From positions 17,486,991 through 17,550,990 of the forward strand of contig CP136061.1 of the NCBI GenBank assembly GCA_032622095.1: a DNA stretch of 64,000 nt, written 5' to 3'. The notes under the pieces were generated by a model. It searched no databases. It was not told the origin of the DNA and was given only the letters and a program-made list of their open reading frames with translations. The translations under genes and the position numbers were made by a program. This document shows positions 6,838 to 62,767 of this stretch, one piece after another; positions within the stretch are counted from its first letter, which is position 1, and each line of letters begins with the position of its first letter. This stretch comes from Siphonodentalium dalli (Eukaryota; Mollusca; Scaphopoda; Gadilida; Siphonodentaliidae).

Positions 6838-6905
6838 CTACGGGATAACTACTCGTCAATAAATTTATAGTATATAGAGGATCTACAACGAGTCCCCATT
6901 TCTAG
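6838..6905. repeat. Flanking direct duplication, right copy
   Basis: Second copy of the 6403-6471 segment. It contains the left arm start of the hairpin that follows. Confidence 0.85.
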
Positions 6906-6993
6906 CGGAATTTACAAAAAGGGTGCAGTAAATTAGGTCTAATTTACTGGATGAGTTGTGTAAATTCCGCTATAAACTGGGGACGAGTTGTAC
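6886..6993. repeat. Hairpin with self-opposed CGAG (H6)
   Basis: Left arm tacaaCGAGtcccc...tagcggaattta, right arm taaattccgcta...ggggaCGAGttgta. The arms pair along about 34 bp, but at the same position in each arm both read CGAG in the same direction, giving C-G, G.A, A.G, G-C when folded. The apex holds a second perfect palindrome, cagtaaattag/ctaatttactg. Confidence 0.85.
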
Positions 6994-7410
6994 ATTGTAT
7001 TTACTACATGATTCAAAACCTCGACAAAAGCTACTTATATCAATAAAGGGAATGCGTAACTAGCATCGTTGTTTGTTCGTAAAGAAATAGTCACAATAAA
7101 TACAGACTCTTTGGCGTATTTAATGGCGTATAGTTAATGATATAACTTTTCATACTCTTCGTTCATTATAATTTGTTGCAAAAATATTGGAACCCATAGT
7201 ACTTTGAGAGGTAGCATGCGGAATGTAAACAGTCGACAAACCGGAACTCAAAGGTCACCTGGCACTATTACCTGTTATTAAACGAACGTTTAATATCACA
7301 ATTTATAGAATGGGTTTAATGAATGGAATAAGGGTAGGATCATGTAATACAGATGGTTAATACATTGCATGGTTAAAGTATTCAGTGTTATATGTGATAT
7401 TTCATTCCAG
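6994..7410. other. Intron sequence before the last exon
   Basis: Nothing recognised until the acceptor atttcattccag at 7399-7410. Confidence 0.4.
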
Positions 7411-7619
7411 GCCATGTCTATGTTGACGGGTTCATGACCCATGGAAACAACACGTTCTACGCGTGGGATGGACAACCTCTGCCGTATATTGAGTGGATTT
7501 CGGATCATTATTTCGCCCCATTGAAAATCTACATGAAGTTCGCTTACGACATCGACGGGAGGCGAAAACTGGATTCAGCCCAAGGTGGCGTCGCACGGGC
7601 ATATGTGTGTGAGTTATAG
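7411..7619 (+). CDS. C-type-lectin-like domain, terminal exon with stop
   Basis: Begins in phase 1 after a good acceptor and ends at TAG 7617-7619. The residues HVYVDGFMTHGNNTFYAWDG, then PYIEW and finally RAYVCEL, correspond to the WIGL-like strand, the W-x-D/N-G loop and the last Cys strand of a CTLD. The EPN/QPD and WND calcium-sugar motifs are absent and so is the third conserved Cys, so this is a CTLD fold without the classic mannose/galactose site. The joined domain has about 120 residues, near the usual CTLD length. The last 39 coding bases and 41 bases beyond are duplicated at 8033-8112 on the other side of a MITE. Confidence 0.75.
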
Positions 7620-7660
7620 TGAGAAGCATCAGGGAAACTCATATGGCTACAATAGAATGT
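7581..7660. repeat. 80-bp duplication around MITE copy B, left copy
   Basis: Runs from caaggtggcgtcgcacgg through the stop codon to about gctacaatagaat. Repeated with few changes at 8033-8112. Confidence 0.92.
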
Positions 7661-8022
7661 GTCAATGCATTCTCTTATATATGCGAGTCGACCATATGTC
7701 GCCTCGCATATATAAGAGAATGCATTGGCCTAACAATTTTTTATCATTTTTTTAAAATAAATGTTTCTTACAAATTTTAAGACATAAAATAAAAAACATC
7801 CATTACCCTGCAGTGAGCCCCACACATATATAGAAGCATATAGAAGAGTGCCGTCTGCTCATGTTTGTCTGGGGCTCTGTATGGGTGAAATTATAAAGTT
7901 GTTAAAGAATACAAGATAAAATTATTAAAATTGTAAAAAATTGTTAGGCCAATTGCATTCTCTTATATATGCGAGGCGACATATGGTCGACTCAGATATA
8001 TAAGATAATGCATTGGCACAGG
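7661..8022. mobile_element. Foldback MITE, copy B (most complete)
   Basis: Both ends are palindromes of roughly 70 bp (caatgcattctc...tatatgcgagtcgac / gtcgcctcgcatata...gaatgcattgg) that are also inverted copies of each other. The interior has the catccattaccctgcag block and a gagcccc/ggggctc stem shared with copy A. Other copies are at 1930, 15175 and 18982. Confidence 0.9.
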
Positions 8023-8032
8023 GTAAAAAATT

Positions 8033-8112
8033 CAAGGTGGCGTCGCACGGGCATATGTGTGCGAGTCATAGTGAGAAGCATCAGGGAAACTCATATGGCT
8101 AAACTAGAATTT
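8033..8112. repeat. 80-bp duplication around MITE copy B, right copy
   Basis: Second copy of the exon tail. It reads ...VCES then a stop in the corresponding frame, and has no upstream domain, so it is not expected to be translated. Confidence 0.92.
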
Positions 8113-9089
8113 GCATGTACAGGGACATAGCGACAGAGGGTTGGGTGTCTCACCCCTCAACCTTGGCAAATATTTGCAACAGTTGAAATTTGCATGCTTG
8201 ACATAGTGTTAGCTGGAGATTTCAGACCGAAAGTATGTTTAATTTGTTGGTTTTGAACCAATTAAACGCGAGTACAGTTGTGATCTTATTGGAATAATAT
8301 GTTTGGAGGAGAAATGCGTTTCAAAAAATTTAGGATCGGTAATATTGCATTTTCATTGAAACAGATTGATATTGTCAACCGAAAAGTTCACTTGAAGTTC
8401 GAATATGTGTACAGTGTCAGGTCAAACAAAAGATTCTTGATGATGAATTTGACTTTATAATGGAACGCTCTTATATACTAATTTGAGCGATGGCCATTTT
8501 AATATGAGTTAGCGCTAACACAGAATGCGCTCCATCGCATTCGTGAACAACTGATTATTTCTTGCCCAACAATGGAGATGTGTGATTGTTTAATATCATA
8601 TGTTTCTACATAACATATTATTTTGTAATTAAAATGTTCATCTGATACCACAAAGTGAACAGTGAGTGTTTCGTTTAAACATGTAACATATAGTGTATAT
8701 TCTGTGGCTTGTTATTGAAAATAGCAAATATCACATGGTTGTGGTTAGGAATTTCTAAAATATAATATTTTTGGTAAATATAAATATAGCGAAATAAAAC
8801 TCATATGCCTGTGACTATCGACAAAGTTGATATACCATCATTGCTTTATATATAGATATACCATCTTTGCAGTTTTCCAAAACTCCATGATCAGATCTTC
8901 AGATGAGAACTGTCCTTCACAATTTCAGTCACTAACACCACTAATATTAGATAATAATTATCGAAGCTTACAATAATGTACGTGCATTGTAATATTAAAC
9001 ATGGTGTGTGGTTTAATTGTTTTAATGAATTTAAGCATAAAATAATACAAATTATGATAGCTCGAAACATAGAATAGTTTGAAAAAAAT
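8113..9089. other. Non-coding, nothing recognised
   Basis: About 1 kb of AT-rich sequence without a convincing frame, repeat or RNA gene. It may include the 3' untranslated region of the lectin gene if the copy at 7617 is the real stop. Confidence 0.35.
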
Positions 9090-9522
9090 TATCAGAGATC
9101 AATATGGCCGATGCATATGAAATGTGGTTACCAATATACTATCAATCAGAGATAATTATGGCCGATGCACATGGAACGTGGTTACCAAAATACTATCAAT
9201 CAGAGATAAATATGGCTGATGCACATGGAACGTGGTTACCAAAATACTATAAATCAGAGAGATAAATATGGCCGATGTGCATGGAACGTGGTTACTCAAA
9301 ATACTATCAATCAGAGAACAATATGGCCGATGTACATGGAACGTGGTTACCAAAATACTATCAATCAGAGATAAATCTGGCCGATGTGCATGGAACGTGG
9401 TCACCAAAATACTCTCAATCAGAGATCAATATGGCCGATGTGCATGGAACGTGGTTACCAAAATACTATAAATCAGAGATAAATATGGCCGATGTACATG
9501 GAACGTGGTTACCAAAATTCTT
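9090..9522. repeat. 54-bp minisatellite
   Basis: Eight units of 54 bp with atcagagataaatatggccg, catggaacgtggttaccaaa and atactat(c/a)a. The period is 18 codons, so frames are open on both strands (for example ADVHGTWLPKYYQSEINM per unit). No start context, splice site or homology supports translation. Confidence 0.95.
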
Positions 9523-9949
9523 TCATCCTGTACTTATATAACAACATGGAAATAGGATTATAAAATAAAAGCAAGGGAGTTAACCATCAGCTAATTTATT
9601 ACGAGTTCGATAAAATATTCGAGATCATGATGCAAGTTGTGTTTTTTTTTATTCTACAATTTTGTGTCAGATAAGATATATACATGGCTATCACCTTCAT
9701 TGACACTATAGCTACATTTAATGTGATTTAGGTCTGATGAATAACCAGTAATGATCCAGACATCACCCGCAACGGATCGTTGACGTAATCTACGTCATCT
9801 TTCAACAAGAAAAGTTCCGAAATGTGTTCCACTAGAGATGTACAATACAATTATGTATTCAATTGCTGGGATGCCATTGAATACACGATTCTCATGTCAA
9901 TGGGCGTGAACTAATTATGTTATATAGTATGTATTGTGTGATAACCGGT
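9523..9949. other. Non-coding, nothing recognised
   Basis: No supported feature. Confidence 0.3.
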
Positions 9950-10421
9950 CAGTACATATGTTATCTAGCATGAAGATCATTATGAAGTATTATAAATAGT
10001 ATCTGTTATATAATATAGAATGAATATTATTATGAATTACAGTATGTATTATATGTTATTTAGCATGAACATCATTATGAATTATAGGAAGTATTATAAG
10101 TTATCTGACATGAATTACATTATGAATTATATTATAACTATTATATGTTATATAGTACGAATATCATAATGAATTATAGTAACTATTATATGTTATTTAG
10201 CATGAACATCATAATGAATTATATGAAGTATTATATGTTATCTGACATGAATATCATTATGAATTATATTATAAGTATTATATGCTATATAATGTAGAAT
10301 GAATATTATTATGAATTACAGTAAGTATTATATATTATTTAGCATGAACATTATAATGAATTATAGGAAGTATTTTATGATATCTGACATGAATATCATT
10401 ATGAATAAAAGTAAGTACTAG
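9950..10421. repeat. Degenerate ~45-bp tandem repeat, locus 1
   Basis: About ten diverged units containing tatgaattata, gtaagtattatatgttat and ctagcatgaacatcat. The same unit reappears at 17260-17395. Confidence 0.85.
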
Positions 10422-11051
10422 TAGAATGACCCGGCGTCGCCCAGGTTAAGGTAATGTGAAACCCTATGTGGAGAACATTTGGTGGGAGTACTGAATGTTC
10501 TTACTCAAAATGTTACACATATTCTCATGAATTGTATATCTAAATGGCATTACAAAACGTCATTCTTATACATGTATTATAAGTAGTGGCTCACCTTGTC
10601 GGATATATTGCCATTTTGTTTATGGTGATTAATTCGTCCCACCAATAAAGAAGTATATAGTTATTTAAACTGCGCGTACTTCAGATGTTATATTTTGTTT
10701 AAATCGTACAGTCATCAGCATGGTTAGAAATGACAATTTTAAAAATATTTTTATTGAGATCAAAACATGAACATCATAAACACATTAGTTCGCAAAAAAT
10801 AAAAGACGACAATAGGGTTTTACATGGAGATGTATAAATCAATCTAGTGGTTTAGACAAAGATTTTGAGGATCCTGGTTATCACATACCCACGAATTTAC
10901 AAACGTGTAAAAGAAATGTCCTGCTCCTCTGTTCATGATGCTATACTGGCTAGTTATGCTCAGTTTAAAAGAAATGTTTTAAGTTTTTAAAGTTGTTTAT
11001 ATTAGCCTATGACTCTTCTAAAAACATTAAGAAATCCTGTGTATCTGGCGG
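10422..11051. other. Non-coding; GC-rich word at 10427
   Basis: The block gaatgacccggcgtcgccca follows the tandem array directly and stands out in base composition. It looks like the edge of a dispersed repeat. No gene seen. Confidence 0.35.
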
Positions 11052-11157
11052 AAATATACCCTTGTCAGATATATACCATTGCCAGATATATACCCTTGTC
11101 AGATATATACCATTGTCAGATATAACCCTTGTCAGATATAAACCCCTTGCCAGATGC
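11052..11157. repeat. 17-bp tandem repeat
   Basis: About six units of cagatatatacccttgt with variation at the cc(c/a)ttg(t/c) positions. Confidence 0.85.
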
Positions 11158-11402
11158 CAGTACTGACGGGTCTTGAAACATCATTGAGTGTACTTTCTTT
11201 TATCGCAGAAGAAATATGTGATTGCACACTGTGACCACTATTTTTGAACAGGTCTTCTATTCATTTCCATCTCTCTTGATCAATTATATCCGTTTTTGTG
11301 GAAAATATCTTGAATGGGACAGACTCAATTGTGTTATAATATATGAGACATGCAAAAATATCATTTGTTTTACTTTAAACATATTTTATTTGTATATCGA
11401 AT
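11158..11402. other. Non-coding, nothing recognised
   Basis: Short AT-rich stretch between the tandem repeat and the LINE 3' end. Confidence 0.3.
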
Positions 11403-11622
11403 AATACAAAAGGGATTGGGGACAAGTTACAAAACTTACTTTGCACCTCTCCCTGTTTACAATAATATTATTCAAACAAAATGTTGAAGGAATGATTCAA
11501 AATCATATATAGGTTAAACATATTTACATTTACAAATGATTGGGTTCGGGGTTTGGGATGGGAGGTGCCAAAACCGATTTGTGACTAATTTGCTTTTTGT
11601 GGCTATTCTGAAATGCGTTTGA

Positions 11623-12106: not shown

Positions 12107-14084
12107 TTACAGAAGTAAGAATTTTCCCGGTTTACTCAAGTTATATCCAGAGACTTCAGATGATCTAGGTGTTAGGAGATTTTGTAGGTATTCGGGGGCA
12201 TCGTCATTTACTATTTTGTACATTGCTTGTAGTTTATGGATCTCTCTTCTCTTGCTCAGTGTTGGCCAGCCAACTTCATTTAGGAGGTTTATATTGGACA
12301 CTGATCGTGTGAGGCCACTAACTGTTCGGGCGGCATCGCAATGTAATCGGTCGAGCTTCTCGGTTAGGTATATGGGGGTACAATCCCAGACTACATCGGA
12401 GTAATCAAATAGTGGTAGGATAAAAGTTTTATAAATGCTTTCAAGCGATCTTCGGTCAAGCTGATACTTAAATCTTCGGAGCTGTGCTAAGTGTGAGGCT
12501 ATTCTGTTTGTTATACCATGTAGGTGATTATTCCATTTTAAGTTAGCTTGGAGTTCCAGACCGAGGTGGGTATGTGTTTCAGCAAATGAGATTTTATCCT
12601 GTTTAAAGGTTAAGTCGGGGGCTTCCCCAGAAGTCCCCGTTAGTGCATAGGACATACTAGAGGGATTAAAGTTTACTAACCAATGTTCAGACCATTGTGC
12701 TATGATTTGGAGGTCACTATTCATGACGCGGCCTAATTCATTTAGGTCATAGTGACTATTTGTTAGACATGTGTCGTCGGCGTACATTCTCGTAAAAGAA
12801 AGTATGTTGTCTGGTAAATCGTTGATATAGACAAGGAAGAGGAAGGGTCCTAAGATTTAGCCCTGTGGTACACCAGCTGGGATGATCTCGTATTCAGAAA
12901 AGGTGTTATTTACTAAGACTCTTTGTTGCCGTTTATGAAGGTAGTCCTCTATCCATCTCAATGTTCTCCCGCGAACTCCATAATTATACAGCTTATATAA
13001 CAGTCCCCTGTGCCAAACTCTCTCGAAGGCTTTGGAAATATCACAGAAAACAGAGCATGTATATAGTCCTTTGTCGAGAGATTGACATAGGTGATTGTAG
13101 AGGTCTATCAGTTGGTGAGATGTGCTGTGGCCGGTTATGAAACCCGATTGGTTGGAATAAACTAATTTATTGTCGTCGAAGAACGGACTTATTTGTTTTA
13201 GTACAAGTTTTTCAAACGCTTTCCCAAGACAAGGAAGCAGGGAGATAGGTCGATAGTTTTTTGTGTCGGCTGGGTCATCTTTATTTTAAAATTGGAACAA
13301 CGTTAGCCTTTTTCAAGGTAGATGGAAACTTTGCGTTGTTGAAGGATTTATTGAAAATTATTGACAGAGGATATGCTATTGATTCAGCTGTTGAATTTAA
13401 CATTTTCGCACTTATTCCATCATGTCCATGGGCTTTATTCAGTTTGAGCGATGTTAATACAAAAATTATCTCATCCTGCGTAAATTCCAATTCCGTTAGT
13501 TCTTTTTCACAACGCGATTTGAATGGTGGTAATTTATGGGATGAATCGTTAATCGAAGAATTGAAAATGAAACTTTTATTCAGCAGGTTGGCTTGTCCAG
13601 ATCGTCTGTTACGTAGAGTTTTCCGTTTATATCAATCGTGTTGCTCGTGTTGGGGAAAGAACTTGGAGTAGATAGGGCGGGATACAATTTGTTTTCTTTT
13701 TACATAGCAAGAAATTTATTAATTGCCAAAAATCGCGGGGGGATGATGAGTCTTTAACCCGATTTTCCAGTTTCTCTTCAAATTTTGCTTTTGCGAACTT
13801 TTTCATGTTATTAATTTTGTTTCTGGTATTCTTATACTGTTGCCACGTATCAGGGCGATTGTTTTTTAGCGCTTTGTTTCGTAATGGTTCTCTTTTGCGG
13901 ATTTCTTTTCTAATGTCGGAACTAAACCAAATTTTGTCTTTTGGGCGTATTGTCACTTTTGACTGTGGGATTGTTTGATTCATGATGGAGAGAAATGTCT
14001 CCTGAAAATTGTTAACTATAGTATCTATGTCGGGTGCAGATAGGAGATCATCCCAGTTTGTGTTACTAAGCAGGCTATTTGCTC
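12107..14084 (-). pseudogene. LINE 1 linker and reverse transcriptase
   Basis: The linker (13627-14084) is basic and helical. The RT shows NKAHGHDGISAKML (about 13440), NVVPILK, FITGHSTSHQLIDL (about 13120), DISKAFERVWHRGL (about 13030), PAGVPQG (about 12870) and the catalytic YADD (12773-12787). A TAA stop at 12857-12859 replaces the Ser codon expected right after PQG, and a frameshift lies near 13270. From 12787 down, 226 codons are open, covering the thumb-like region with the typical LDRLHCDAAR and LTRSVSN words. Confidence 0.9.
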
Positions 14085-15174: not shown

Positions 15175-15553
15175 GAGTTTACCACCCTGTACCATAGGTC
15201 GCCTCTCATATATAAGAGAATGCATTAGCCTAACAAATTATATATTAGTTTTTTATAATTGTTAACAAATGTAAAAATTATAAAAAAATGACCAAAAAAT
15301 GTTAAAGAATGTAAGAAAGGATTATAAAAATAATAGGTTCGTATATTTTTATAATCGTTTCTTACATTCTTTAAAAACAAATTGTCATTTTTTATAATTT
15401 GTTTTGGTCATTTTTTATAATTTTTACATTTGCTTACAATTATAAAAAACTAATATATAATTTGTTAGGCCAATGCATTCTCTTATATATGTGAGGCGAC
15501 CTATGGTCGACTCGCATATATTAGAGAATGCATTGGCACAGGATGGTAAACTC
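15175..15553. mobile_element. Foldback MITE, copy C (full-length palindrome)
   Basis: The whole 379-bp element folds back on itself around 15345. It starts gagtttaccaccctgt and ends acaggatggtaaactc. The right end has the complete terminal palindrome; the left end is shortened. Unlike copies A and B, the interior is AT-rich inverted repeat without the catccattaccctgcag block. Confidence 0.88.
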
Positions 15554-15587
15554 AGATATTCATTAGAACAAATTATGGAGATATTTG

Positions 15588-15640
15588 TTATCCACCAAAG
15601 TTATGTTTAGTTTAACTAAACATAACTTTGGTGGATAACG
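15588..15640. repeat. Perfect 53-bp palindrome
   Basis: gttatccaccaaag + ttatgtttagtt, one central t, then the exact reverse complement (26-bp arms, 1-base spacer). The right arm continues into ggataacggcgactaaaac, a word of the degenerate tandem family at 16420-17240. Confidence 0.93.
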
Positions 15641-16275
15641 GCGACTAAAACATTCTTTTCAATGTTAGTGCCCCCATGTTTCCACACATGCCCCAAACGG
15701 ACCTAATGTTACGGCTTTAACACACATTATTTAATTTCTCGTATCATTGGAGAAGAACATTTATCATATGACTCAATCATTATTTACGTTGTTTACTATG
15801 TCATAAATCAATTTCATATGAACTACTAGTTCATATCACCTTCCGATAATTTGATTGGTTTGTTGACAAAAAGTGTGTTCTGATTGGCTGAATGGCAGCC
15901 GGGGGCCGAGACTAAATGCAGGTCAAATTCGTGCGCGTCAAATACAAGAATCAACGCGATGCCGAAATTCTCGCAATTATAATCTTGAAATATATAGTTT
16001 TGGACATTGTTATACGATAAATAGAATATGTACTTCGTATTTATCTAATAAACATACGATATAATGTCACAAACTGAGAACAGAATAGCGCACTATATCT
16101 TCGCGTGAATATTATTTCTGCTAGTTCACCAAGTGTAACTGGGCTTCCGGTGCAATGAAATGACGTCACATTAACGTTTTGCTGCCGATGTCATATAGCT
16201 ATTTAGTGATTTGTGTGCGTTTTGGACATCATAATCAATTTATAGGTGTCATATGATAAATAGAATATGTAATAC
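15641..16275. other. Non-coding; edge of degenerate tandem family
   Basis: 15641-15720 resembles the units at 16420-17240 (ggcgactaaaac..., gccccaaacgg). The rest holds nothing recognised. A TGACGTCA palindrome lies at 16159-16166, a CRE-type word that may be chance. Confidence 0.35.
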
Positions 16276-16395
16276 GTGTTTCTCTCATATGATATTTATG
16301 AAACTCGTCACGAATTTTCAGTTTTCTCTCGCCGGAGGCTCGACAAAACTGAAAATTCTTAGACTCGTTTCATAAATATCATATGAGAGAAACAC
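16276..16395. repeat. Two-tier hairpin with self-opposed CTCG (H1)
   Basis: Outer stem: 29 bp perfect (16276-16304 with 16367-16395). Inner stem: gaattttcagtttt with aaaactgaaaattc. Apex: ccggagg. CTCG occurs four times in the same direction: at 16304 and 16364 (facing each other outside the inner stem) and at 16327 and 16339 (facing each other under the apex). On the minus strand these are CGAG/CGAG, tandem G.A mismatches closed by C-G pairs. Confidence 0.9.
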
Positions 16396-16419
16396 TCATT
16401 TCATATCCTCTATATATCA

Positions 16420-18981: not shown

Positions 18982-19268
18982 GCCCTGTGCCAAATGCATT
19001 CTCTTATATATGCGAGTCGACCATGGGTAGCCTCGCATATATAACAGAATGCATTGGCTTAACACATATTACAAATGATAAAATTGTCAAAGAATGTAGA
19101 ACAATATTATAAAAATTGTTAAAAAATGTAAGAAAAAATTTATAAAATTGTTAAAGAATGTAAGAAAAATGGTAAAAAAGAATTTTGTTTAGGCCAATGC
19201 ATTCTCTTATATATGCGAGGCGACCTATGGTCGACTCCCATATATAAGAGAATGCATTGGCACAGGGC
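18982..19268. mobile_element. Foldback MITE, copy D
   Basis: Begins gccctgtgcc and ends ggcacagggc, with both terminal palindromes (atatgcgagtcgaccatggg / cgaggcgacctatggtcgac). The interior is AT-rich with repeated gttaaagaatgtaagaaa. Same family as 1930, 7661 and 15175. Confidence 0.92.
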
Positions 19269-19958: not shown

Positions 19959-20078
19959 GAATTACGTTAAATAATTATCGAGATCGAGGTGTGAGAGACG
20001 ACTGTAAGAGACGAGTGCGCACGAGTTATTTTTTACCTGAACGTCTCTCGCCTTGAGTGAAATATTTAACATAATTCT
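19959..20078. repeat. Two-tier hairpin with self-opposed CGAG (H4)
   Basis: Outer stem aattacgttaaataatt with aatatttaacataatt; middle stem gagagacg / cgtctctc; apex tgcgca. CGAG faces CGAG directly under the apex (20012 and 20022). Further out, CGAG at 19984-19987 faces TGAG at 20054-20057 in the same register, so the tandem G.A pair is kept although the closing C became T. Confidence 0.78.
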
Positions 20079-20428
20079 AGGAACCAATTGATTACTCTAT
20101 TTATTACACTTCTGCATCAATTTGGTTTGCCAAATATGTTTAAAACACCCAGAATTAATGCACGAAAGTCCCAATGCTGAGAAAATTCAACCATCGAAAA
20201 TTAAGTCTAGATCAGTAAGCAACGTAACGTCAATGACGTCACGAGAAATGACATAATTAACTAGTGACATTACTATTTTAATTAACGGCGTTTTCAGTGT
20301 AATAAATATATATATAAAACAAAAAAGGTATACTTCTGCAGCGCTATGTGGTTTTTAGACCATAAATAGATATTAGCCTTCTAAGAAAATATTTAATTTC
20401 ACTTCATATTTAAAAATAAATAGAGGAT
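20079..20428. other. Non-coding, nothing recognised
   Basis: Contains caatgacgtcacgag (20229), a CRE-type palindrome that may be chance. Confidence 0.3.
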
Positions 20429-20572
20429 ATCTAGTGTTTTTAGTGGATACCGAAAATGATCTCATTCGTGGCCGAAGCAGATGTCTATTTTTCGCGAGTG
20501 GCTTGCCACGAGCGAAAAATAAACATTTGTCGCGGCCACGAATGAGACAATTTTCGATATCCACTCATTAGA
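20429..20572. repeat. Hairpin with self-opposed CGAG (H2)
   Basis: Arms of about 68 bp: atctagtg...agtggatac, ctcattcgtggccg, tatttttcg on the left and their inverses on the right (cgaaaaata, cggccacgaatgag, tatccact). The apex is tggcttgcca. Immediately below it CGAG (20494) faces CGAG (20508) in perfect register between paired cg and tggc segments. Confidence 0.92.
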
Positions 20573-21108
20573 TTTTCTTTTTATTTTACCGGTGATGTAC
20601 AAATACCCATTATAACCGGCTATACTAGCGTGCTTTAGTGTATACCATCCTTGAATAAGATGATAAGAATTAAATTCATGCTGTCCAAAAAAGTCCTAAA
20701 AAATCGAGTGGGTTCCTTTTCAAATGCCATTGGAAAGTGAATTTGGCGACTCGCAATTTTACGGCAAAAAAATATTCAGAAACTAGAATAATTTTCCAAT
20801 AAGAAAATACTAATCACATAAATTCCACTTTTTCACGACACCCCTTGAAGTTTAGCCCCTACTAAATGCGGGGGGGGGGTCAGAACAAGCTATAGTTTGT
20901 GCGCGAAACATTCAAGAATTTGCTTGTTTTTAAATAGCATATGCATGGCTCCTCATATGTTTGCAATACAACACGTATCGCTATCGGTAACTTGGAGTAT
21001 AGTATGCTGGCGAAAATTCGGAGTATATAATAGGGTCGCTTCATCGTTCCAGGCTATGTAAAGTTAGTTGCGTGGTTCAGATAAATATTATAAATGTACT
21101 GTTTACAG
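20573..21108. other. Non-coding; poly-G run
   Basis: Holds a run of ten G at about 20870. No gene seen before the acceptor tgtactgtttacag at 21095-21108. Confidence 0.35.
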
Positions 21109-44784: not shown

Positions 44785-44845
44785 CAGGAATGATTAACAG
44801 CCCGAGGGGCTATTTATAGACCCGAGAGGGAGTTAATCATTCCTG
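44785..44845. repeat. Hairpin with self-opposed CGAG (H5)
   Basis: Outer stem caggaatgattaac / gttaatcattcctg is perfect (14 bp). The inner segments agccCGAGgggc and gacCCGAGaggg carry CGAG in the same direction. With one bulged base they face each other between CC/GG pairs. Confidence 0.75.
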
Positions 44846-47451: not shown

Positions 47452-47868
47452 AATAATCTACATCTATCTACATCTACTTGATACTCCATCGCCCTCAATG
47501 TGATGAGGATTATGTGGAGGTCCAGGTGCTACCACGGCCGAGTAACTTTATAACCCTGTGGTGACTCCAGTAGCGTTCTTTAACGTGCACACACCGAGGC
47601 GTGTACACGGGTCAGCCATTAATGTCCGCGTCCGATCGGACAGCGTACTGCACCCACGACAACATACCTGGACAATTGTTGTAATGGGGGGAAGTCGGCA
47701 TTTTGCATTCGGATCTTGATTCAGTGATCTCGAATGAGACTTTTCAGCCTGACTAACTTGGTATCTGACCGAGTTCTGATTTTTGTCAGAATACCCTGAC
47801 CAGGTTGCGATCCCCGGTCCGATAGCACGAGAGACCAGTACGCTACCTCTCGGCCACCGACTTCCCAA
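47452..47868 (-). mobile_element. tRNA-derived SINE, uninterrupted copy
   Basis: Minus strand: head ggtggccgagaggtagcgta with A-box tggccgagagg and B-box ggatcgcaacc, body with gaactcggtcagatacc, acattaatggctgacc, gcctcggtgtgtgcacg, aaagaacgctac, tcggccgtggtagcacctgg, and a tail of tagatg/tagatgtaga repeats at 47452-47475. It is the reference that shows both insertion sites in the split copy at 41172-44780. Confidence 0.88.
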
Positions 47869-51258: not shown

Positions 51259-52606
51259 TTGACTACATCCAACCAGGGACAGATCATTTGAAATGTCCTC
51301 ATGCCAGAAAAGAATGAATTGTTATATGAGAACTCTTGGGCGAGGTGCGAATAGAGTCTGTTTACAAATATCTCTTTGCATGCTTTGGACGGCGAAAGGC
51401 GACAAAGACTTCCAAATAGACTCAACCTACATGCATCAATGAACGAACAAATTGGGCGCATGCCCAGTAGGCCCAAAGCGATACACATTCTTGTCCTAAC
51501 AGGGAGGCTTTGGATACGCTTCAGACAGAATCGGTGGATCTTTTCAATGGATAATGTGTCAGAGACGGTCATGCCACAAAGAAACTCAGTACCATATAGA
51601 CCTTTTGGTAGAACAACCGACTTATAAATAATTTCGCAGCTTAATGGGGTGATTCCTCCAGCATACAGACCAGGTATTACTAAGGAGAAAATATGTTGAT
51701 CTGATTTTGTCCCAGACTTTCTCAGCTATATCTTTGACGAAGTTTTGATTACAGATGTGTGAGTTTATTTCGTCCGTTTCTGACACACTGCCATCGTTAA
51801 GCATCCAATGTATGTTAATGCCATCGCTATATCTAGCTGATTCATTGAATACAATGACTTTGCATTTAGTGGGGTTATACAGAAAACGCCATTTCTGGCT
51901 GTACGAAGAGCAGATGTAACCCAAGCGTTTTAGGCCGTAACTAGAGGGTGACATTAACGTCATGTCGTCAGCCTGTGTTGGAGACGAACAATTTGTGAAG
52001 ATAAGGCGGAAACAAAAGTTTGTAGCCTCGATTGCGTGCAATAAGTCATCGATATACATCATGTAGAGAAGAGGAGAGAGTATACTTCACTGCCTCGCTC
52101 CCTGTTTTATTTCAATTGTTCTGGCACGTTTAACAATACATGTTATACCACTGAGAAACTCCTTTAATACAAGACATATTTTACCCTGAAAACCACGGAG
52201 GTGCAATTTCAACAATAATCCGTTTATCCAGACTGTTTCAAATGCCTTACGCACGTCTAAGAAACAAGCTAACAGCTTGGTATGTTGTTCTTTGGTATAA
52301 TTAATACTTTCATGTAATATGTATGAAATATGTATTGATAAGGTTTGGTGTGTTACACTCCATACGGCATAAGATAACTTTTTCTAATGATTTGTATATC
52401 ACTGGAAGAAGAGTTATTGCTCTGTAACTATCAAAAAGTGTTTTCGGCTTATTTCCACCTTTGTGCAAAGAAACCATCATACCGATTTTGGCTGTTGGAG
52501 GTATGTATTGAAACTCATTTTGCTCAATACATGTGCCATACATTCTTTTAGTTTGTTACCTCCATAAACGATATGTTCATAGCATACTATGTCGGGTCCC
52601 GGGGCT
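51168..52606 (-). pseudogene. LINE 2 reverse transcriptase and C-terminal region
   Basis: Starts right at the insertion border with NMGKAPGPDIVCYEHI (about 52595), then AKIGMMVSLHKGGNKPK, SYRAITLLPVIYKSLEKV (about 52420), and the catalytic QADDMTLMSP (51961-51975; Y replaced by Q). Then FLYNPTKCKVIVF. C-terminal part 51572-51168 has IHRFCLKRIQSLPVRTR and PHYGKP-like words. Frames shift at about 52300, 52090 and 51620. Confidence 0.85.
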
Positions 52607-53632
52607 TTACCCATATTGAGAACTTGACATTCAAAAAGCACATATCCATAATCTGCTCCAAATTATCACATGCAATCTACTGCATCAATAAGGTAAAACA
52701 TTTTTTCCCAAGTAAAGCATTGAAAACATTGTACTATGCACCGACTCAAAGCCACTTAGTTTATGGTATCCAAATATGGGGTCATGTTCCGGAAGTCAAG
52801 AAAATATTCCTATTACAAAAAAAGAGCAATGCGTACAATATGCAATAAGAAGTATAGGAGTCACACAGATCCACTCTTTAAAAGAGAGAATATCTTGAAA
52901 ATATATGACTTACACACACTCAATTCCTCCATTTTCACGCATGACTGGTGTTATAACCGCCTGACTGCGTCTTTTGGAATGATGTACAAGAAACGAGCAA
53001 AATCAACACCAAGACACCCGAATCCCATACTGTTAGAACTACCTAGAACTGACTGGTCAGGTAAATTGTCACACCACGCCTACCCCACAACATGGAACAA
53101 CATGGAAAAAGACTATACATCTTACCAAAGCAGGCACACGTCGAAGAAGCGCTTACAGATAGCAATGCTCAGAAATTACCAAGAAAATGTACGCTGTAAA
53201 AACAAAGGATGCCCCGACTGTGCTCTATAAATAATATGACTATTCATTGTTATACTCGATGCAAAATCATAATTGTTCTCGTCACTAACATACATATAAA
53301 CATTACATATATGTAATACTGTTAATTTGAATATCCAAACACCTCACTCAACAAACAAAAACAAAAAGACTTTCCAGTGATATATATAGATAATTCCTAT
53401 CTTACTTACTTAACTAAAGACGGTGGTATCTTACAATTCGTCTGGATTGTCTCACAACCACATCAATACTTGTCTATGATATGCCCCAAAACTAGTTTCT
53501 AGTTAGTTTTATACACGATAATGCATGTAGTCTGTACGTATGCGTGGATAAAATACAATCCATCTATGCAAATAATTATAGTGATACTTGTTTTAGGGGG
53601 TAGCAGGAAGACAGCCCGATAGGGCTAGGCTA
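52607..53632 (+). mobile_element. 5'-truncated LINE (LINE 3) inserted in LINE 2
   Basis: Begins mid-RT (NLTFKKHISIICSKLSHAIY, FFPSKALKTLYYA, HLVYGIQIWG), shifts frame near 52800, then KKRAMRTICNKKYRSHTDPLF up to CKNKGCPDCAL and a stop at 53228. A ~400-bp 3' untranslated region ends agcaggaagacagcccgata, gggctaggctaacacc. Its strand is opposite to LINE 2, and abrupt loss of the 5' part is what target-primed reverse transcription leaves. No clear target duplication was found. Confidence 0.85.
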
Positions 53633-53971
53633 ACACCAACAATATATACGGTTATTTACATATGTCAGATTGTCAGAGAATGAATTAACATATTCACGAT
53701 GGGCCTGGTCAAAGGTGCCTGATTCCAGTGGATAGTATAAACGTTCATAGTATTCGGCCCACGCGTTTGTGATTTCTTGCGGATTTCTTAGTGTGGAACC
53801 ATCGAACGTAAACAAATTGTTGTTATCGGAATTACTTTTCGCCTTGCGCCGATTGAATAGTCTGAAAAACATTTCCTGTTTCATCTCGGCCGCGTTGTCA
53901 ATAACGTCGTTTTGATCTGACAAGAATTTCGTGTTAGATTTACGAAGCTTCAACACAGTTTTGATAACCAC
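53633..53971 (-). pseudogene. LINE 2 EN-RT linker
   Basis: Reads MFFRLFNRRKAKSNSDNNNL, TFDGSTLRNPQEITNAWAEY and YERLYYP, the segment that precedes the RT in L2/CR1-type proteins. It ends at the insertion border at 53632. Confidence 0.75.
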
Positions 53972-54790
53972 TTATAGACTCTGAAGCAAGGAATTTTTTC
54001 CAGTTTAGTGCATAGCCTGGACTTTCTGCTGGGATATATTTCGAAGTGATCTCGATGCTTAATTTCACAGGTCTATGATTTGAGTAATCTAAAGCGGAGT
54101 CAGATAGAACCTGTGTCCCCGTAACGAGAGGGAGGTTATTTTTATGTATTAATATATGGTCTATTATTGTACCAGGTCCACCAGTTGCAGAGACGTGGGT
54201 TGCTATCAGGCGTGTGAGTGGATCAGAATAGTTAACAGAGACCAGTTTGCTGCGTGAAAGAAATTTCGAGAAACTACGGTTTCTGGCATCAGTTTTCTGG
54301 ATATTTCCGTTTAGATCACACATTATAATGACATTCCCCATTGTGGAATAATAATCTACAAGTTCATCTAATGTATCGATGTAATTTCGATAGAATTCGA
54401 CAGTATAGTTAGTTGACGGAAGGTATACTTGAAAAATGCATGTGTACTGTGAGTCGGCTAGCTGCAATTGAATCCCGCATATTCTATCATCATTCAGTTG
54501 GATGATCGAGACGACACTATCCAGCTTCTGGTGCCAGAAAATTGCTACTACCCCTTTATCGCGACCCCTCTCTATCGGAATTCGCTGCGAGAAATCACAA
54601 ACGGCGTGGTACCGGTATGAGTTACTGATTGTGTCAAGAATATGCACATTATGGTTATGAAGCCAGTGCTCGCTGATACCTAGTATGTCTACATCCTGAA
54701 ATGCGAGTAACTGTGACATGTAATGAGTACTTCCCATCGCCCCAGTGGCGTTCCATGTGATACTATTCAACATGGTCTCAGTGTCAAATT
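53940..54790 (-). pseudogene. LINE 2 endonuclease domain
   Basis: Open for most of its length: SITWNATGAMGS at the start, DILGISEHWL (catalytic E), RGRDKGVVAIFW, YLPSTNY, VIIMCDLNGN (D and N), GTIIDHILIHK and SNHRPV (SDH equivalent). The joined frame extends upstream into ORF1 sequence (to 55037) without a clear own start. Endonuclease nicks target DNA to prime reverse transcription. Confidence 0.85.
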
Positions 54791-54867
54791 CCACTAACAA
54801 CAATAAGACAATACAGCGTGTAAGTACGCGCGACTTGAACATGTTTTTCAAATTATTATTAATATTA

Positions 54868-56270
54868 TTAATATGCCCGATAGGAATCAGACTGATCTCT
54901 ATTTCTATAATTAGATCGATGCGACTTCGATGGGTTTTTTTCGTCGAATGATCTTTTGGAAAGCCATTGTCTGCAGAAAACGTTAGGCGACCAGAATCCA
55001 TCTTCAAAGACGGCATCGAAGTCATCAATGTGCACATTTATTCTAGCCGAAGCGGGTGAATCGTAACGACCACCTCTGCTAAGGATTTTTACCACAAAAT
55101 GTCGAATTCCGTATTTGTCTAAGTAGCGCGACAACACAGATGCGTCAACTGCCACATCGAGATTCCCGACAAATACATGCCTTGTTTTGATCGGGTGACT
55201 GTTTTGCTTTTGTGCGAATCTTTTGCAAGAGATCTTCTCCTTCACCCTCTCTAACGAATCTTTTGTAGTCGGGAGAACCCCTTCTATTGTAATCTGGTGT
55301 GCGCTCTCTGCGGTGTGAATGACGCTCACGTTGAATATGCCGGTTTGCGGAATCGTCGCTTGATCTCTATCGTCAGAATTGTGCCGTGGGTTTCGTTGAT
55401 GTCGTCCACAGTTATGTTCTCGAGTCCGCTATTGGTTTATTGAAATTCGAGATTATCATATTCGTGTGGGTTAAGCACAACATATTTAGAGTTATCTCTC
55501 TTGTATGATGTGCCCATGCTTGTCTTTGTGGATGTCCGTTTATCATCAGTCGGAGTTGACGTTTCCTTAGGATGAATCTTGGACCGAGACGGTAATGATG
55601 AGGACAAGTGTTCAGCAGCTGAGGCAGGCTGAGTGTCTACGGTACTCTGTGTATCGCCGTTTGCACTTGCACCTTTTGAGTTTTGCGATCGGTCGGTGTT
55701 TGCATTCATAGCTTTCCATGTAACTTGGGCGAATCGATTTAGCTCACCATAAACATGCTGTACAAATTCCCGGAGGTCCGCCTTCAAGTTATCCACACAT
55801 ATATGTTCACAATCACACGGTCCGTCATTTCATTTTCAAGACTTGGAACTACTCTTGTTCGCCTTGTGTGTGTCCTCAAGTGATTTAATTCTGCCACTTA
55901 GTAAAGCGATAGATCCCTTGGCTGAATTGCGTTGATTGAGAAACATCTCGCATTTATCTAAAATAGATGAAATGTCTTGCTTCATGGTTTTAATTTCTGC
56001 TTTTATTCTGGAAACCCCATTGCATTGATCACTCTCGATTCTTACCACCGCCAGCTGATTCGAATTGGAAACGCTCTCCACGGACTCTAGTCGACAAAGC
56101 ATTTCATGGAACTTTACCTCGTTGGTGATCACTCGAGCAGATATGTCAGATGCAACGGTATCAATCTTTGTCTGCATTTGGTCGCGGGACTGTTGCAATA
56201 AGTTCACCGTAGCAGCAAGTTGCACGTTGGTGTTGGACTGTTGAGATCGTTCCTTATCAGCATCACCATA
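54868..56270 (-). pseudogene. LINE 2 ORF1 (coiled coil, Cys cluster, RRM-like)
   Basis: Three frames in order. 56225-55836: heptad-rich coiled coil (LAATVNLLQQSRDQMQTKI; later MKQDISSILDKCEMFL). 55835-55437: begins across a stop with a region readable as CDCEHIC, then a Ser/Thr-rich low-complexity part. 55329-54868: RHVFVGNLDVAVDASVLSRY followed by KYGIRHF, an RRM-like beta-alpha-beta start, then basic residues. This is the usual ORF1p plan of nucleic-acid-binding LINE proteins. Broken by at least two stops or frameshifts. Confidence 0.75.
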
Positions 56271-56404: not shown

Positions 56405-56415
56405 AAAGGAAAATT

Positions 56416-57540: not shown

Positions 57541-58464
57541 CGACCCATCATACACTCACAAGCAAAATACATTAATATTCCACGCGACCCATGATACACT
57601 CACAAGCAAAATACATTAATATTCCACGCGACCCATCATACACTCACAAGCAAAATACATTAATATTCCATGCGACCCATCATACACTCACAAGCAAAAT
57701 ACATTAATATTCCACGCGACACATCATACACTCACAAGCAAAATACATTAATATTCCATGCGACCCATCATACACTCACAAGCAAAATACATTAATATTC
57801 CATGCGACCCATCATACACTCACAAGCAAAATACATTAATATTCCACGCGACACATCATACACTCACAAGCAAAATACATTAATATTCCATGCGACCCAT
57901 CATACACTCACAAGCAAAATACATTAATATTCCACGCGACACATCATACACTCACAAGCAAAATACATTAATATTCCACGCGACCCATCATACACTCACA
58001 AGCAAAATACATTAATATTCCACGCGACACATCATACACTCACAAGCAAAATACATTAATATTCCATGCGACCCATCATACACTCACAAGCAAAATACAT
58101 TAATATTCCACGCGACACATCATACACTCACAAGCAAAATACATTAATATTCCACGCGACCCATCATACACTCACAAGCAAAATACATTAATATTCCACG
58201 CGACACGTCATACACTCACAAGCAAAATACATTAATATTCCACGCGACCCATCATACACTCACAAGCAAAATACATTAATATTCCACGCGACCCCTCATA
58301 CAGTCACAAGCAAAATACATTAATATTCCACGCGACCCATCATACACTCACAAGCAAAATACATTAATATTCCACGCGACCCACCATACACTCACAAGCA
58401 CAATACATTAATATTCCACGCGACCCATCATACACCCACAAGCAAAATACATTAATGTTCCACG
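57541..58464. repeat. 44-bp array, 21 units, inside a LINE reading frame
   Basis: Exactly 924 bp of cgacccatcatacactcaca + agcaaaatacattaatattc + cacg. The sequence before it encodes ...LFGDPSYTHKQNTL and the sequence after it encodes FHATQKLIRDSNRFS and a stop, so the unit is the LINE's own codons. Units alternate between gaccc and gacac forms through the middle (for example 57805-58240), suggesting amplification of an 88-bp dimer. Confidence 0.97.
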
Positions 58465-58850
58465 CAACCCAGAAATTAATTCGTGATAGCAACCGTTTCT
58501 CTTGATTTATATAAGTGTCACCCCCCTTTTTGACCCAAACGAATATACTATGTGGTTTAAATTTTTTTTTTTTATATCAAACACTATCGCATCGACAGCT
58601 CCCAAATATGACAGCTCAATAAATGTATATAATTATTTGTAGACATTTACTTTATATATTTTGTTTTTCTATGATTAATTGCCATGATTGAAAATTATAT
58701 TAATGTACATACTTCACTGTTTGTGTATTACTGTGGGAGTGGAGCAATGATTAAGTGCCATCACTTGTGCTCCGATCCCTTTGTGATATAACTGTTCCAA
58801 TAACATATGTTTAATCTAACATTAGCACTGCGTCGAATGAAGTCAAGACC

Positions 58851-58882
58851 CCGGAACGTGCCATGAATCTCTGCTCTCTTAA
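58851..58882. other. Left flank of the TTAA element
   Basis: Ends in ctcTTAA, the left target copy at 58879-58882. Confidence 0.6.
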
Positions 58883-61054
58883 GGGTATCCTAAACGTGAC
58901 AAAGATGGCCGAATGAGTTTTTATACCCCTCTCTCCGATAAATGACAGCCATTGCAAGACTATGTTTCCAATTTACATGAAATTTCAGAAGGATATAGGA
59001 TTATGATTGAACAATATTTTGGCATCAAATCCATATTTTTAAAAGATATATTTGACTGAGAAAATTAACTGGAAAGTGAGCGAAAATATGCCATTCACCA
59101 GAAGTCAAAACTAATAAACAGTTATAATTATTGTGGCATCTTATACATTAGGATTCCATGATGAGGAGAGGGACCGTCATTTTATAAAATAACTCACTAT
59201 TTTAGCTACAAATCCACTGAGTTGAAGGCCCCCTCCATCAGTTGAACACAAATATGTGGCCATTTGGTTTTTGGGACTATTTTATGGTATGGGAAGCCAA
59301 GTTGGCAATGATGTGAGCTGGATCATAAGGATGTATAAGGCTGTCTATTTTGCCCCTATTTCAACAATACCTCATGCACAATTGATACTGTATAACTGTG
59401 GTGATTTTGGATAAAAATAGCAGCGAGTACACGTGGCCGAAGTAAACAGACACAATCAACCAATGACTTGCCGAGGATCGGTCACGTGGGGAAATATTCC
59501 GGAATAGCGCACAGACGATCGCTGCGAGACTGCGTTCATTCCAACCTGAGCAGCGGTCGACTACGTATCTAATTTATATTCCTATTCCAACTGATGTTTA
59601 ATATTGCCGTATTTATGATGTGTTGTCATCTCTTCAAATAGTTCATATTGGTGAGTTTATATCATAACTTCTTATTGTAGCATGCATTATATTACCCCAT
59701 CTTTCAAATTACTACAAAACATATTTAAACAAAAAAATACACTGTATTAAAGCTATATTTTCAACATTCCCTACGGAAATCAGATGCATCATATTTTGTG
59801 ATACTGGTGCATTGTGACACAAATGGCCTGGCGTGCATTCATACTTCAGAGATTTTCTAACAGACATTACCCCAGACAGTTGAAAAACAACATTAAGAAG
59901 CTAGCATATATTGTGATTTGATATAATTATAGTTTAAGTACCCCTAATATTGTTTTAAAAAATATTTTTGAACTGATTTAGTCGGCCATTAAAACGAAAC
60001 CAAAACGAGATTTCGACATGTTTTTGTTTTTCTGAGAAAGTTGATCAAACAATACAACAGCCCTAAAAATTAACTTGGATGACTGATTGCCCAGTTATCT
60101 ATACCTGCATGAATTACATATGGTGTTGATTATATCCGCTGTGTATGATGCGTGTAACCTTGTTTTGATTGCTTTTAATAAGAATAGTTTGCATCTGCAA
60201 AAAGGGAAACGCGTGCAACACTAAAAATAGATTTGGGAAAGACCGGGAATCCGTACCCTCTAACAAAATAATACTTGATAGATATACACATTATTTAATA
60301 AATTCTGTTTATATATGAATACCGTGTTTTTGGTTGTCAATCTAACGCATATTCCGGTGTTTTTTCATGTTTAAAAACTAAAATTATTTAAAGAGTGAAT
60401 TATTTCATACTTGTGAGAAATTTCGTTCGGAGTGTATTCCAAGTTTTTAGTCACGTGATGTTTACAATCCATTTTGTCAAAGTTTGCCTTCAAATATCTT
60501 TTTTCTAGTAAATTGTCATTTAAATCAGCGATGTTCTAAGGTTAGTTTTGGTCATAAAGTACTTAAATATGCTAATTAGTGGTGACTATATATTCTCAGA
60601 TTTTAGTATCTGTTAACCACAAATTGAAGTTCCCTAATTTTCGAGTGTTGTTGTGGATTTCGCATATCGAGCGGATACGACCACATTTTACACGGTGAAT
60701 TTCTGACACAAGAAACATTATAATGAAAAAGCAAGGTCCCTCTCAATATATTGGAATATCAAAGCATCTATCGGTAAACTATTATAGTAAAAACATGCAG
60801 TAATTTTACAGATATTAGTACTGTAAGAAAGTGTAAAATTGAAATCAACAATTGTTTCATAATTTTTTTTATATAGATTCCTGTAAGATGGGACAACATT
60901 TTACATTTCAAAATGATCTATGTTTTATAATTATAATATTGTATTGGTTCATTTTTTGCCATTTTGTAAACCTTATAGTGAATTTGAGCTCGTTATTTGA
61001 TAAATTTTCGGCCATATTGGAAGAAATTTCAACTCTGTCACGTTTAGGATACCC
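58883..61054. mobile_element. 2.2-kb nonautonomous TTAA element (Kolobok/piggyBac-type)
   Basis: Perfect 19-bp inverted ends gggtatcctaaacgtgaca / tgtcacgtttaggataccc, each flanked by TTAA (58879-58882 and 61055-61058). TTAA duplication occurs in piggyBac and Kolobok; the GGG start fits Kolobok better. About 2.1 kb of interior without a recognised frame. Unrelated in sequence to the TTAA element at 46001. Confidence 0.9.
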
Positions 61055-61058
61055 TTAA

Positions 61059-61514
61059 GTCAAATTTAGTGGAAATTGTCAATGATTAAGCCGGTGTTCG
61101 CAGAATTGAAACGTGTCCGGTTATCAACGGAACCGAAATCAGACCGTCTTAACAACTGTCCACAATAGAAACGGTAACAATTTCCCAAAAAGCAACTATT
61201 ACGATTAAAAAACGTAATCCGAATCCCAAAATGGTGGAGCTCTAGAAAAAATGAAACACGCTAAAGCGTGTAACCCCGGATTGTCTTATTATGAAATCCC
61301 CCCGTCGACTTTTCGAGGCACCTCTTCTAGAAGAAGGGTAAATAATATAGTTCACGCCGCGCACAAAATTGACAAATTAATAATAAAGTGAATTGTCACA
61401 GTCACGTACCCGATCGTCCTTAATGTAATTCGAATAGATTGCTAAAAGACACCCGACATGAGAATAACGTAATTACGTTCTTAGGATTAGACGGACCGAA
61501 TGAATGCTGGATCA
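61059..61514. other. Non-coding, nothing recognised
   Basis: Includes a small acacgctaaagcgtgt hairpin at 61256. No gene. Confidence 0.3.
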
Positions 61515-61600
61515 TTGTATTGATTGATTGATTGATTGATTCGGGTTTTATGTCGCTTTAGCCACTAAGGCCATATCATGACATTGCCAGTTTTAATGGT
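61515..61600 (-). mobile_element. Possible SINE 3' end with (attg)n tail
   Basis: (attg)n at 61517-61540 followed by tcgggttttatgtcgcttta and gccactaaggccatat. The word order is typical of molluscan SINE-like repeats. Orientation inferred from the tail; no tRNA-like head seen. Confidence 0.4.
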
Positions 61601-61883
61601 GGAGGAAATCCGCACACTTACGGCTAATCTAACAGTGATTTCAATGGCTGATAAACTTGTCGACCATGTGCGGCAAACCACCGGCCATCGGCAAGTAACG
61701 GATCATTGTATTGAATACAAGCAATTAATACTACACATTAAATATCAGCAGAGTCAGATTCAGTCATATTGTATGGAGTCATATAATATGGTCGCCGATA
61801 AATATACTATTGAATTTTTACGTCATAACTTAGATTCACGAAAATATTTAATTTAGACAATTTTCATGGGCATATAAAATAAC
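61601..61883. other. Non-coding, nothing recognised
   Basis: The 92-codon frame at 61578-61856 shows no domain and is left out. Confidence 0.3.
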
Positions 61884-61985
61884 GGTGTGGGGCCGTCAAA
61901 CTGATGGAACGGTGTGGGCCGTCGATTATGATGGTGGGGCCGTCGATTATGACGGTGAGACACCGTCGAACCGACGGTGATTTTT
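61884..61985. repeat. Short repeat of ggtgtggggccgtcgattatg
   Basis: Four to five imperfect copies of a 20-30-bp word: acggtgtggggccgtc, aacggtgtgggccgtc, gattatgatggtggggccgtc, gattatgacggtgagac. Confidence 0.75.
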
Positions 61986-62620
61986 AACAGTGTAAGGTGT
62001 AACGTTCCTATTTGACCTTTTTATATCAATAATGAATACCGTGAAACAAATATATAAACCTTATGAACAGTTGGTATGTACTGTAGACAATTGCGCACAC
62101 GGTGTACCTACGTCACAAATACGTTTCTGTTCTAAGCTCTAAATATCAAATAACCACACTTTAGTGTTTATCGATCGACAATTTACTTTCGGCTGTACAT
62201 TCCTCCGACTTCACAGGAATACCCTTATGGCGCGTAACAGTCTGTGATAGTTGTCAATTTTTGTTGGTACTAATAGAACGTGTTAGTTTCACATTTGAGC
62301 GTTCTCGAAATTAACACGTCTACCTGCGTCTTTATGCTCATTCAAAACGAAACCGAACATTTCGTCGCATGGCTACTCTACTTAGAAATTGCTTTAGGCC
62401 TACTCCTCCTTCCGTGAACGGATTCTCACCATGCGACCAGAAAACTAACCGGACAATAGCTCCGCAAATGATGGGTGTATCAATTGATACAAAATGTGAA
62501 CGTTTATTTTCTAAAAATCGAGGATTCCATCATAAAATTATCACTTAGAGCTGGATTAATGAATATAAGCGCGTACTATTAAGAAGGTTCGTGTGTACTC
62601 CTTTGTCAGATAACAAAACA
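61986..62620. other. Non-coding, nothing recognised
   Basis: No supported feature. Confidence 0.3.
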
Positions 62621-62767
62621 GTTGTCACCCTTGTTTTCGTGAGACACGGGGATTTGTCGACGCTCTCGACCTGGAATGTCACCCTCGGCATGGCGGCCCT
62701 CGGGTGACATTTCAGGTCTCGAGCAGGCGACAAATCCCCGTGTCTCACCCAATCGCGGTCGACAACT
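62621..62767. repeat. Two-tier hairpin with self-opposed CTCG (H3)
   Basis: Stems cagttgtc/gacaactg, gtgagacacggggatttgtc / gacaaatccccgtgtctcac, acctggaatgtcacc / ggtgacatttcaggt. CTCG faces CTCG under the apex (62683 and 62699) and again between the middle and outer stems (62664 and 62718), all in the same orientation, as in H1. The apex is gcatggcggcc. Confidence 0.9.

Follow-up and report, generated by a model that had tools for sequence, protein, structure and literature searches.

What a set of long hairpins with seemingly unlike stems can have in common is the question raised by a stretch of 64,000 nucleotides (the window) from the scaphopod mollusc Siphonodentalium dalli, which covers positions 17486991-17550990 of contig CP136061.1 (C1) in an assembly of 2.23 Gb and 9 contigs. 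A preliminary description of its letters had pointed to six hairpins, named here by their first positions (6886, 16276, 19959, 20429, 44785 and 62621), whose arms carry the same tetramer, CGAG, opposite itself at nine places. Such an arrangement gives tandem G.A mismatches, which are stable in a YGAR context, and the six had been taken for one family defined by structure and not by sequence. We found that hairpins 6886, 16276 and 20429 are not free-standing structures: each is one end of a mobile element several hundred bases long. We consider it probable, if by no means certain, that they are the terminal palindromes of non-autonomous Helentron-like (HINE, DINE-1-like) rolling-circle elements and are read by their fold.

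All six hairpins and all nine self-opposed places were found again. Eight of the places oppose CGAG to CGAG (6889/6984, 16304/16364, 16328/16339, 20012/20022, 20495/20509, 44803/44823, 62665/62718 and 62684/62699, the 44803/44823 pair needing a bulge) and one is a weakly closed CGAG/TGAG place, 19985 (or 19979) versus 20054, read directly from the letters. The claim that every non-complementary place is self-opposed did not hold, as other mismatches are also present in the window copies, among them TGAT/ACAA in hairpin 20429 and a long irregular stretch in hairpin 6886. A strict test, which accepts only two-by-two loops closed on both sides by at least 5 Watson-Crick pairs, gave 16 loops in the window with low-complexity repeats included, 5 of them self-opposed and 4 of these GA: two CGAG/CGAG loops in hairpins 6886 and 20429, one TGAA/TGAA loop in a tandem repeat at 10171, and a fourth that was filtered out of the printed list. 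The same test on a comparison sample of 200 kb, drawn as 10-kb pieces at round-number coordinates and with low-complexity loops removed, gave 43 loops with 6 self-opposed and 0 GA; it misses the G.A sites of the sole family member in that sample, locus L046, whose inner stem is short.

On the CGAG strand, the hairpins of three families, which we call A (6886), B (16276) and D (20429), all start with a common stretch of 11 bases, ATAGAGGATMT. This foot occurs in the window at 8 places with at most 1 mismatch, 4 of them exact, against an expectation of 2.3, and none of 100 shuffles had as many. In A and B exactly four bases separate it from the first YGAG, and the combined motif ATAGAGGATMTN4YGAG has 11,031 exact matches (5,528 + 5,503) over the whole 2.23 Gb as compared with 9 (2 + 7) for a reversed-pattern control. 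Within the 200-kb sample the shorter AGAGGATMT was found twice; the copy in L046 stands at the start of a hairpin in which three self-opposed YGAG sites are nested, and the other, in L029, was not recognised as a hairpin opening. Viral contigs held 12 matches to the foot motif (about 8 distinct, five being near-identical and one cut short), none of them a long hairpin, and 0 matches to the longer motif. Structure alone thus does not define hairpins 6886, 16276 and 20429, which have in common both the foot and an internal repeat complementary to the element ends; nor do the six form one class, since only these three could be joined and hairpins 19959, 44785 and 62621 lack the foot. A promoter reading of TATATAGAGG was set aside, the foot being an element end.

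We examined 100 motif places, the matches listed for the first 20 Mb of C1, three of which lie in the window. A long hairpin is present in 93 of them. GA/GA accounts for 183 of their 261 two-by-two loops, and 77 places have at least one such loop and 66 at least two (one in 11, two in 26, three in 40). With the T of TAGAGG taken as position 0, these loops sit at +14 (69), +45/46 (56) and +70/71 (53), with 5 elsewhere; the search pattern itself fixes the left half of site 1 only. The commonest other loops are GGAA/TTAC (30), which holds a G.A mismatch of a further family, C, and CGAG/CAAG (10), which the sub-consensus Ac carries at site 2. Sequence clustering of the 100 gave three main groups, of 63, 20 and 11 copies, and five small ones totalling six copies; the numbers with none, one, two and three GA/GA loops are 7/9/16/31 in the largest cluster and 2/1/10/7 in the second. 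The proposed structural signal is borne out for the foot-bearing elements: it is specific to one strand and consists of tandem G.A steps whose positions are kept while the stems change by compensation. A nested insertion with a CGAG target duplication, in which a transposon entering the loop of another palindrome would likewise leave one tetramer on both arms, was ruled out as the origin of the sites: TGAG faces CGAA in the consensuses of D and B, and no common end sequence is found among the inner stems.

The stems themselves turned out to be less unrelated than first described. Among 20 alignment tests, A and C were clearly alignable (0/500 shuffles as good in both segments) and weaker alignments were obtained for B and C in the outer segment (0/500), B and a further family K (0.002, 0.018), C and D in the outer segment (0.004) and C and K (0.022, 0.034); A/B and A/K were unconvincing. 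The possibility that the hairpins are diverged copies of one sequence, which would have told against a structural family, is thus partly realised, the stems being in part of common ancestry. When the consensuses of A, B and C were set beside one K copy (L075), with D (extra bases in the middle region), Ac and K2 left out, 38 of 67 stem pairs had changed on both sides while 93.9% of cells were paired; 0/500 shuffles reached as high and no slide came near. GA is invariant on both arms at all three sites in these four rows. Traces of exchange or correction between arms are also seen: one family B copy (L085, C1:8991573-8992173) has an inverted hairpin tip in which the inner CGAG sites have become CTCG, and the D copy of the window has a healed site, having lost a TGAG/CGAA site present in the D consensus. 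Such correction could also yield double changes. It would, however, have removed the G.A mismatches as well, and their survival must therefore have some other cause.

Beyond the hairpins, the limits of whole elements could be drawn. A search by hairpin similarity gave 28 D copies, which begin abruptly at the foot on their 5' side and whose upstream flanks are for the most part unrelated; L020, L021 and L028 have flanks in common, and L026 and L027 diverge at the foot. Their consensus carries fewer mismatches than the window D copy and ends in AATAAA, the larger D subfamily having its 3' end near TATAATAAA. Sharp 3' ends were likewise seen in the family alignments, and lengths come to 330 bp in most delimited C copies, 636-653 bp in B and 475 bp in the window A copy. 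Just past the hairpin, A, B, C and D carry an internal repeat of about 10-14 bp, complementary first to the element's own 3' end and then to its own 5' foot, whose inverted copy is the opposite element end. In B, the opposite strand of this repeat has the sequence GTCATATGATAAATAGAATATG, which almost matches the ends in joined form, GTCATATGATAA+(A)TAGAGGATATG. When one copy of C (331 nt) and one of B (654 nt) were folded without constraints, under RNA as well as DNA parameters, both termini came to lie side by side on the internal repeat, which we call the splint. Part of this inner repeat is itself a palindrome (B GTCATATGAC, D ACGCGT). The outer ends, TAGAGGAT and TGATAA, show no inverted-repeat relation to one another.

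The three foot-bearing elements of the window could be mapped part by part. Family A is represented by a 475-bp element on the plus strand at 6875-7349, delimited by alignment with two other copies, with the foot ATAGAGGATCT at 6874-6884, a terminal hairpin to about 7003 whose inner part is deleted, and a tail that ends in GGATCATGTAATA. Its site 1, CGAG at 6889-6892, faces the right-arm CGAG at 6984-6987, and its splint, at 6996-7014, is complementary to the 3' end joined to the 5' end. A second, truncated A copy on the same strand (6441-6479, end approximate) consists of the foot and the start of the left arm; in the loop and cluster counts it was trimmed by one base too many, and with or without that base it lacks a full hairpin. 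Both A copies adjoin another hairpin-bearing repeat (6346-6445 and 6838-6893), relatives of which occur in L029, L032, L034, L036, L043 and L048. The family B element, 652 bp on the minus strand at 15761-16412, has its foot (ATAGAGGATAT) at 16403-16413, its hairpin at about 16262-16412, its splint at 16248-16269 (plus strand GTCATATGATAAATAGAATATG) and a tail to 15761 with the 3' end GAGTCATATGATAA. Site 1 is here TGAG at 16395-16398 opposite a mutated CGTA (CGAA in the family consensus), site 2 is CGAG at 16364-16367 facing 16304-16307, and site 3 is CGAG at 16339-16342 facing 16328-16331. A perfect 26-bp palindrome with a one-base spacer stands just outside this element at 15587-15639. The D terminal hairpin, on the plus strand at 20421-20586 (end approximate), opens with the foot ATAGAGGATAT at 20420-20430 and carries its inner site, CGAG at 20495-20498, opposite the right-arm CGAG at 20509-20512; its tail runs on past the hairpin and no 3' end was found there.

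Insertion sites were read in 22 delimited copies, that is 31 rows minus 9 spurious end matches (A2 on the minus strand twice, L001, the second row of L004, L031, L045 twice, and L046 and L081 under D); D ends were matched at 2 mismatches or fewer, L005 and L023 being less sure. Read opposite to the CGAG strand, 20 of the 22 are flanked T^T, the exceptions being the window A copy (G^T) and L017 (T^C). One empty site is available: the C copies L070 and L089, which have both flanks in common and count as one event, lie inside a family A element whose uninterrupted site is preserved in the window A copy at 7292 as AATATCACAATTTATAGAA, the filled site reading AATATCACAAT, element, TTTATAGAAC with one extra T. 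Insertion at T^T with a target duplication of at most 1 base is thus shown at this empty site and elsewhere deduced from flanks.

This anatomy is that of a Helentron or HINE. One subterminal inverted repeat lies near the outer end and one just inside the palindrome, as defines these elements, the inner copy being about 150 nt from the palindrome end as against 38-60 in HINEs. A palindrome near the 3' end, the HINE position, is represented by the long hairpins of the listed matches, at a size far beyond the 5-10 bp of mites, and insertion into TT without target duplication agrees with the T^T flanks, which are partly a matter of selection, and with the one extra T at the empty site. Canonical Helitrons have a 5' TC, a 3' CTRR and an A/T insertion site; C elements have ends of the form TTATCACAT... 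and ...CCTCTA and T^T flanks, and neither the outer inverted repeats nor the fixed target duplication of a miniature inverted-repeat transposable element (MITE) of the DDE type with terminal inverted repeats was seen. Helitron-type Rep domains are encoded in the genome, PF14214 having at least 151 matches with 150 of 457 candidates scored, in open frames of up to 2864 aa. HINE membership is supported by anatomy, not by a common transposase.

A working picture is as follows. The element is about 330-650 bp long and bears at one end a palindrome with arms of some 70 bp that starts TAGAGGATMT; as a single strand it can fold with both termini brought together on the splint, as the folds of two copies show. 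Its palindrome holds YGAG against YGAG at +14, +45/46 and +70/71, left unpaired while the rest of the stem co-varies. We infer that this palindrome would mark the element end and signal termination, a Rep/helicase transposase acting in trans recognising it as a cruciform or a folded single strand, and the G.A sites may be contacts or kinks that permit recognition with little regard to stem sequence. More tentatively, and as a possibility that we would not call probable, this may be a eukaryotic element end read by shape, in which a protein measures the distances to the tandem G.A steps (three of them, about 15, 46 and 71 nt in from the end) along an otherwise nearly sequence-free stem, and the two termini of the element are held on the splint.

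Several observations weigh against this picture. GA/GA loops are absent from 23 of the 100 listed matches, several of which, when viewed, have deleted arms. The cluster of 11, which holds family K, divides 8/1/0/2 between none, one, two and three loops, and the six copies of the small clusters have none; the two large clusters thus show the pattern strongly, and the third has for the most part lost it. The K row of the pair count is a well-kept copy, most members of its cluster lacking GA/GA, and D has no site 1 and a half-paired CGAG/CGCG. As for the flanks, the hairpin-side (right-hand) T was a requirement of the search pattern in 10 of the 22 copies, and is present in 11 of the remaining 12. 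The two flanking Ts could also be part of the element. Copies that share flanks represent larger duplications and not terminator bypass, which is ruled out for L071/L072/L081, L070/L089 and L082/L083 as both flanks are in common; L066-L068 have the upstream flank, the only side compared, in common. The two strands of the D consensus fold with like energies (-115.6 versus -115.4 with RNA and -72.7 versus -73.6 with DNA parameters), and the Helentron orientation puts the CTCG side with its T.C mismatches, not CGAG, on the 3' palindrome strand. Two 2.8-kb stretches, one for each of two long open frames and sampled at a distance of about 4-7 kb beyond its Rep domain, which may miss the right place, revealed no autonomous element with these ends: there was no foot and no hairpin of this size, the best 160-nt window (-52.8) having short stems only. 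Finally, the palindromes of mite HINEs are 5-10 bp long and lie 8-35 bp from the end in the parts of PMC4067079 drawn on here; ours, with arms of about 70 bp, is some tenfold longer and stands at the very end of the element. The partial selection of the T^T flanks and the scarcity of G.A loops in the third cluster slightly reduce our confidence in both the Helentron-like assignment and the reading by shape.

What else could have produced such elements? The splint, which is complementary to the sequence where 3' and 5' ends would join and on which both folds place these ends, would also suit a circle made by a tyrosine recombinase in the manner of DIRS1-like elements, the repeat holding the ends for closure and the circle recombining into a short matching target. 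Passages of PMC3266345 describe comparable complementary regions in DIRS1-like elements together with a 3-bp circular junction and no target duplication; the inverted terminal repeats of 66-316 bp given there have no counterpart in our outer ends, which are not mutually inverted, and the HINE layout of subterminal repeats produces the same arrangement, so we judge the circle unlikely. Alternatively the hairpin may act as RNA, transcribed from the foot side, in which case the protein of a retroelement that copies it would bind the hairpin, with its sheared G.A pairs, at the 5' end. The G.A strand is the stable side in RNA, the foot-bearing families carry their sites on that one strand, and the AATAAA at the D end would fit a transcript. 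Eight family C copies have neither a target duplication nor a tail of variable length, the empty site is almost clean, and a comparison of the window with Rfam gave no family at or above its gathering score; the copies had been selected by their 5' end, which would hide any 5' truncation. On balance we hold an RNA role to be quite unlikely.

Arm-to-arm copying is central to another explanation, in which a cut-and-paste MITE has terminal inverted repeats that are imperfect, its arms stay similar through this copying, and its G.A places are transposase sites in double-stranded DNA. The inverted tip of L085 and the TGAG/CGAA site lost from the window D copy do show that exchange and correction occur, yet correction would remove the very mismatches that are kept, the outer ends are not mutually inverted and the duplication at the empty site is 1 bp at most; a MITE origin is already disfavoured and in our view very unlikely. 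Mere decay, in which mutated palindromes came by the same tetramer through coincidence, could point to the other mismatches in the window copies. It is hardly credible against 11,031 matches versus 9, 183 GA/GA loops of 261 with 178 at three fixed places, no GA among the 43 strict loops of the 200-kb sample and viral motif matches without a long hairpin. Chance is refuted for the three foot-bearing hairpins, a verdict that does not extend to hairpins 19959, 44785 and 62621.

These latter three were placed in no family. Hairpin 19959-20078 (plus strand) has CGAG/CGAG near its tip, 44785-44845 (plus strand) is short with a bulged CGAG/CGAG, and 62621-62767 (minus strand) is richer in GC with two CGAG/CGAG sites 19 nt apart. 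Local BLAST, run against the fetched loci only, found no second copy of any of them, apart from a partial match of the 44785 flank to 47519-47601. A separate palindromic repeat, GCCAATGCATTCTCTTATATATGCGAGGCGACC with its inverse, lies at 2108-2176, 7661-7729, 7950-8016, 15469-15537, 18991-19057 and 19193-19261 and has a single G.A mismatch near the tip in the copies inspected. The window also contains LINE-like (long interspersed element) remains with reverse transcriptase and endonuclease domains at 12857-13285 and 51622-55037, both on the minus strand, and a tRNA scan of it found none. Locus L046 holds, at about 1750-8800, a large tandem array built of GC-rich units, each several hundred bases in length (AGCCCGGACC...), and the orientation of the array flips near 5720.

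To our knowledge, little has been established about how Helentron-type elements recognise their ends. Four families in which three G.A sites stay fixed while 38 of 67 stem pairs have changed doubly suggest which parts of the terminus are read, and offer a concrete, testable model of structure-based end recognition in a eukaryotic element. They also provide a combined signature of sequence and structure for annotating this class, whose motif has 11,031 exact matches in a single genome. If the reading by shape were correct, the stem could drift, perhaps evading silencing based on sequence, while the terminus remained functional. No description of such a patterned G.A hairpin was found in the literature at the level of titles and abstract openings, and we make no claim that it is unpublished.

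Folded single-strand hairpins are recognised in bacterial REP/RAYT systems and in integron attC sites, where mismatched or extrahelical bases set the polarity; those hairpins are bacterial and much shorter, and lack a repeated G.A at three fixed places. With DIRS1-like elements ours have in common an internal sequence complementary to the joined ends and the lack of a target duplication, and differ from them in being non-coding, in having no inverted terminal repeats and in measuring 0.3-0.65 kb instead of the roughly 5-6 kb of the table rows in PMC3266345. Helitron2, named beside the HINEs, is described as carrying a palindrome at either end together with terminal inverted repeats that are asymmetrical. 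For the HINEs of mites, the portions of PMC4067079 used here put one subterminal inverted repeat at 2-4 nt from an end and its partner, immediately internal to the terminal palindrome, at 38-60 bp from the opposite end, and describe a T-rich or TT target that is left unmodified. Our elements are unlike these in their tandem G.A steps at fixed distances and in the covariation of stems between families, with no autonomous partner tied to them. Like HINEs and DINE-1 as presented in the same portions of that source, they are non-coding and of high copy number, carry an end repeat with its inverse inside the palindrome, and insert at TT with no clear duplication.

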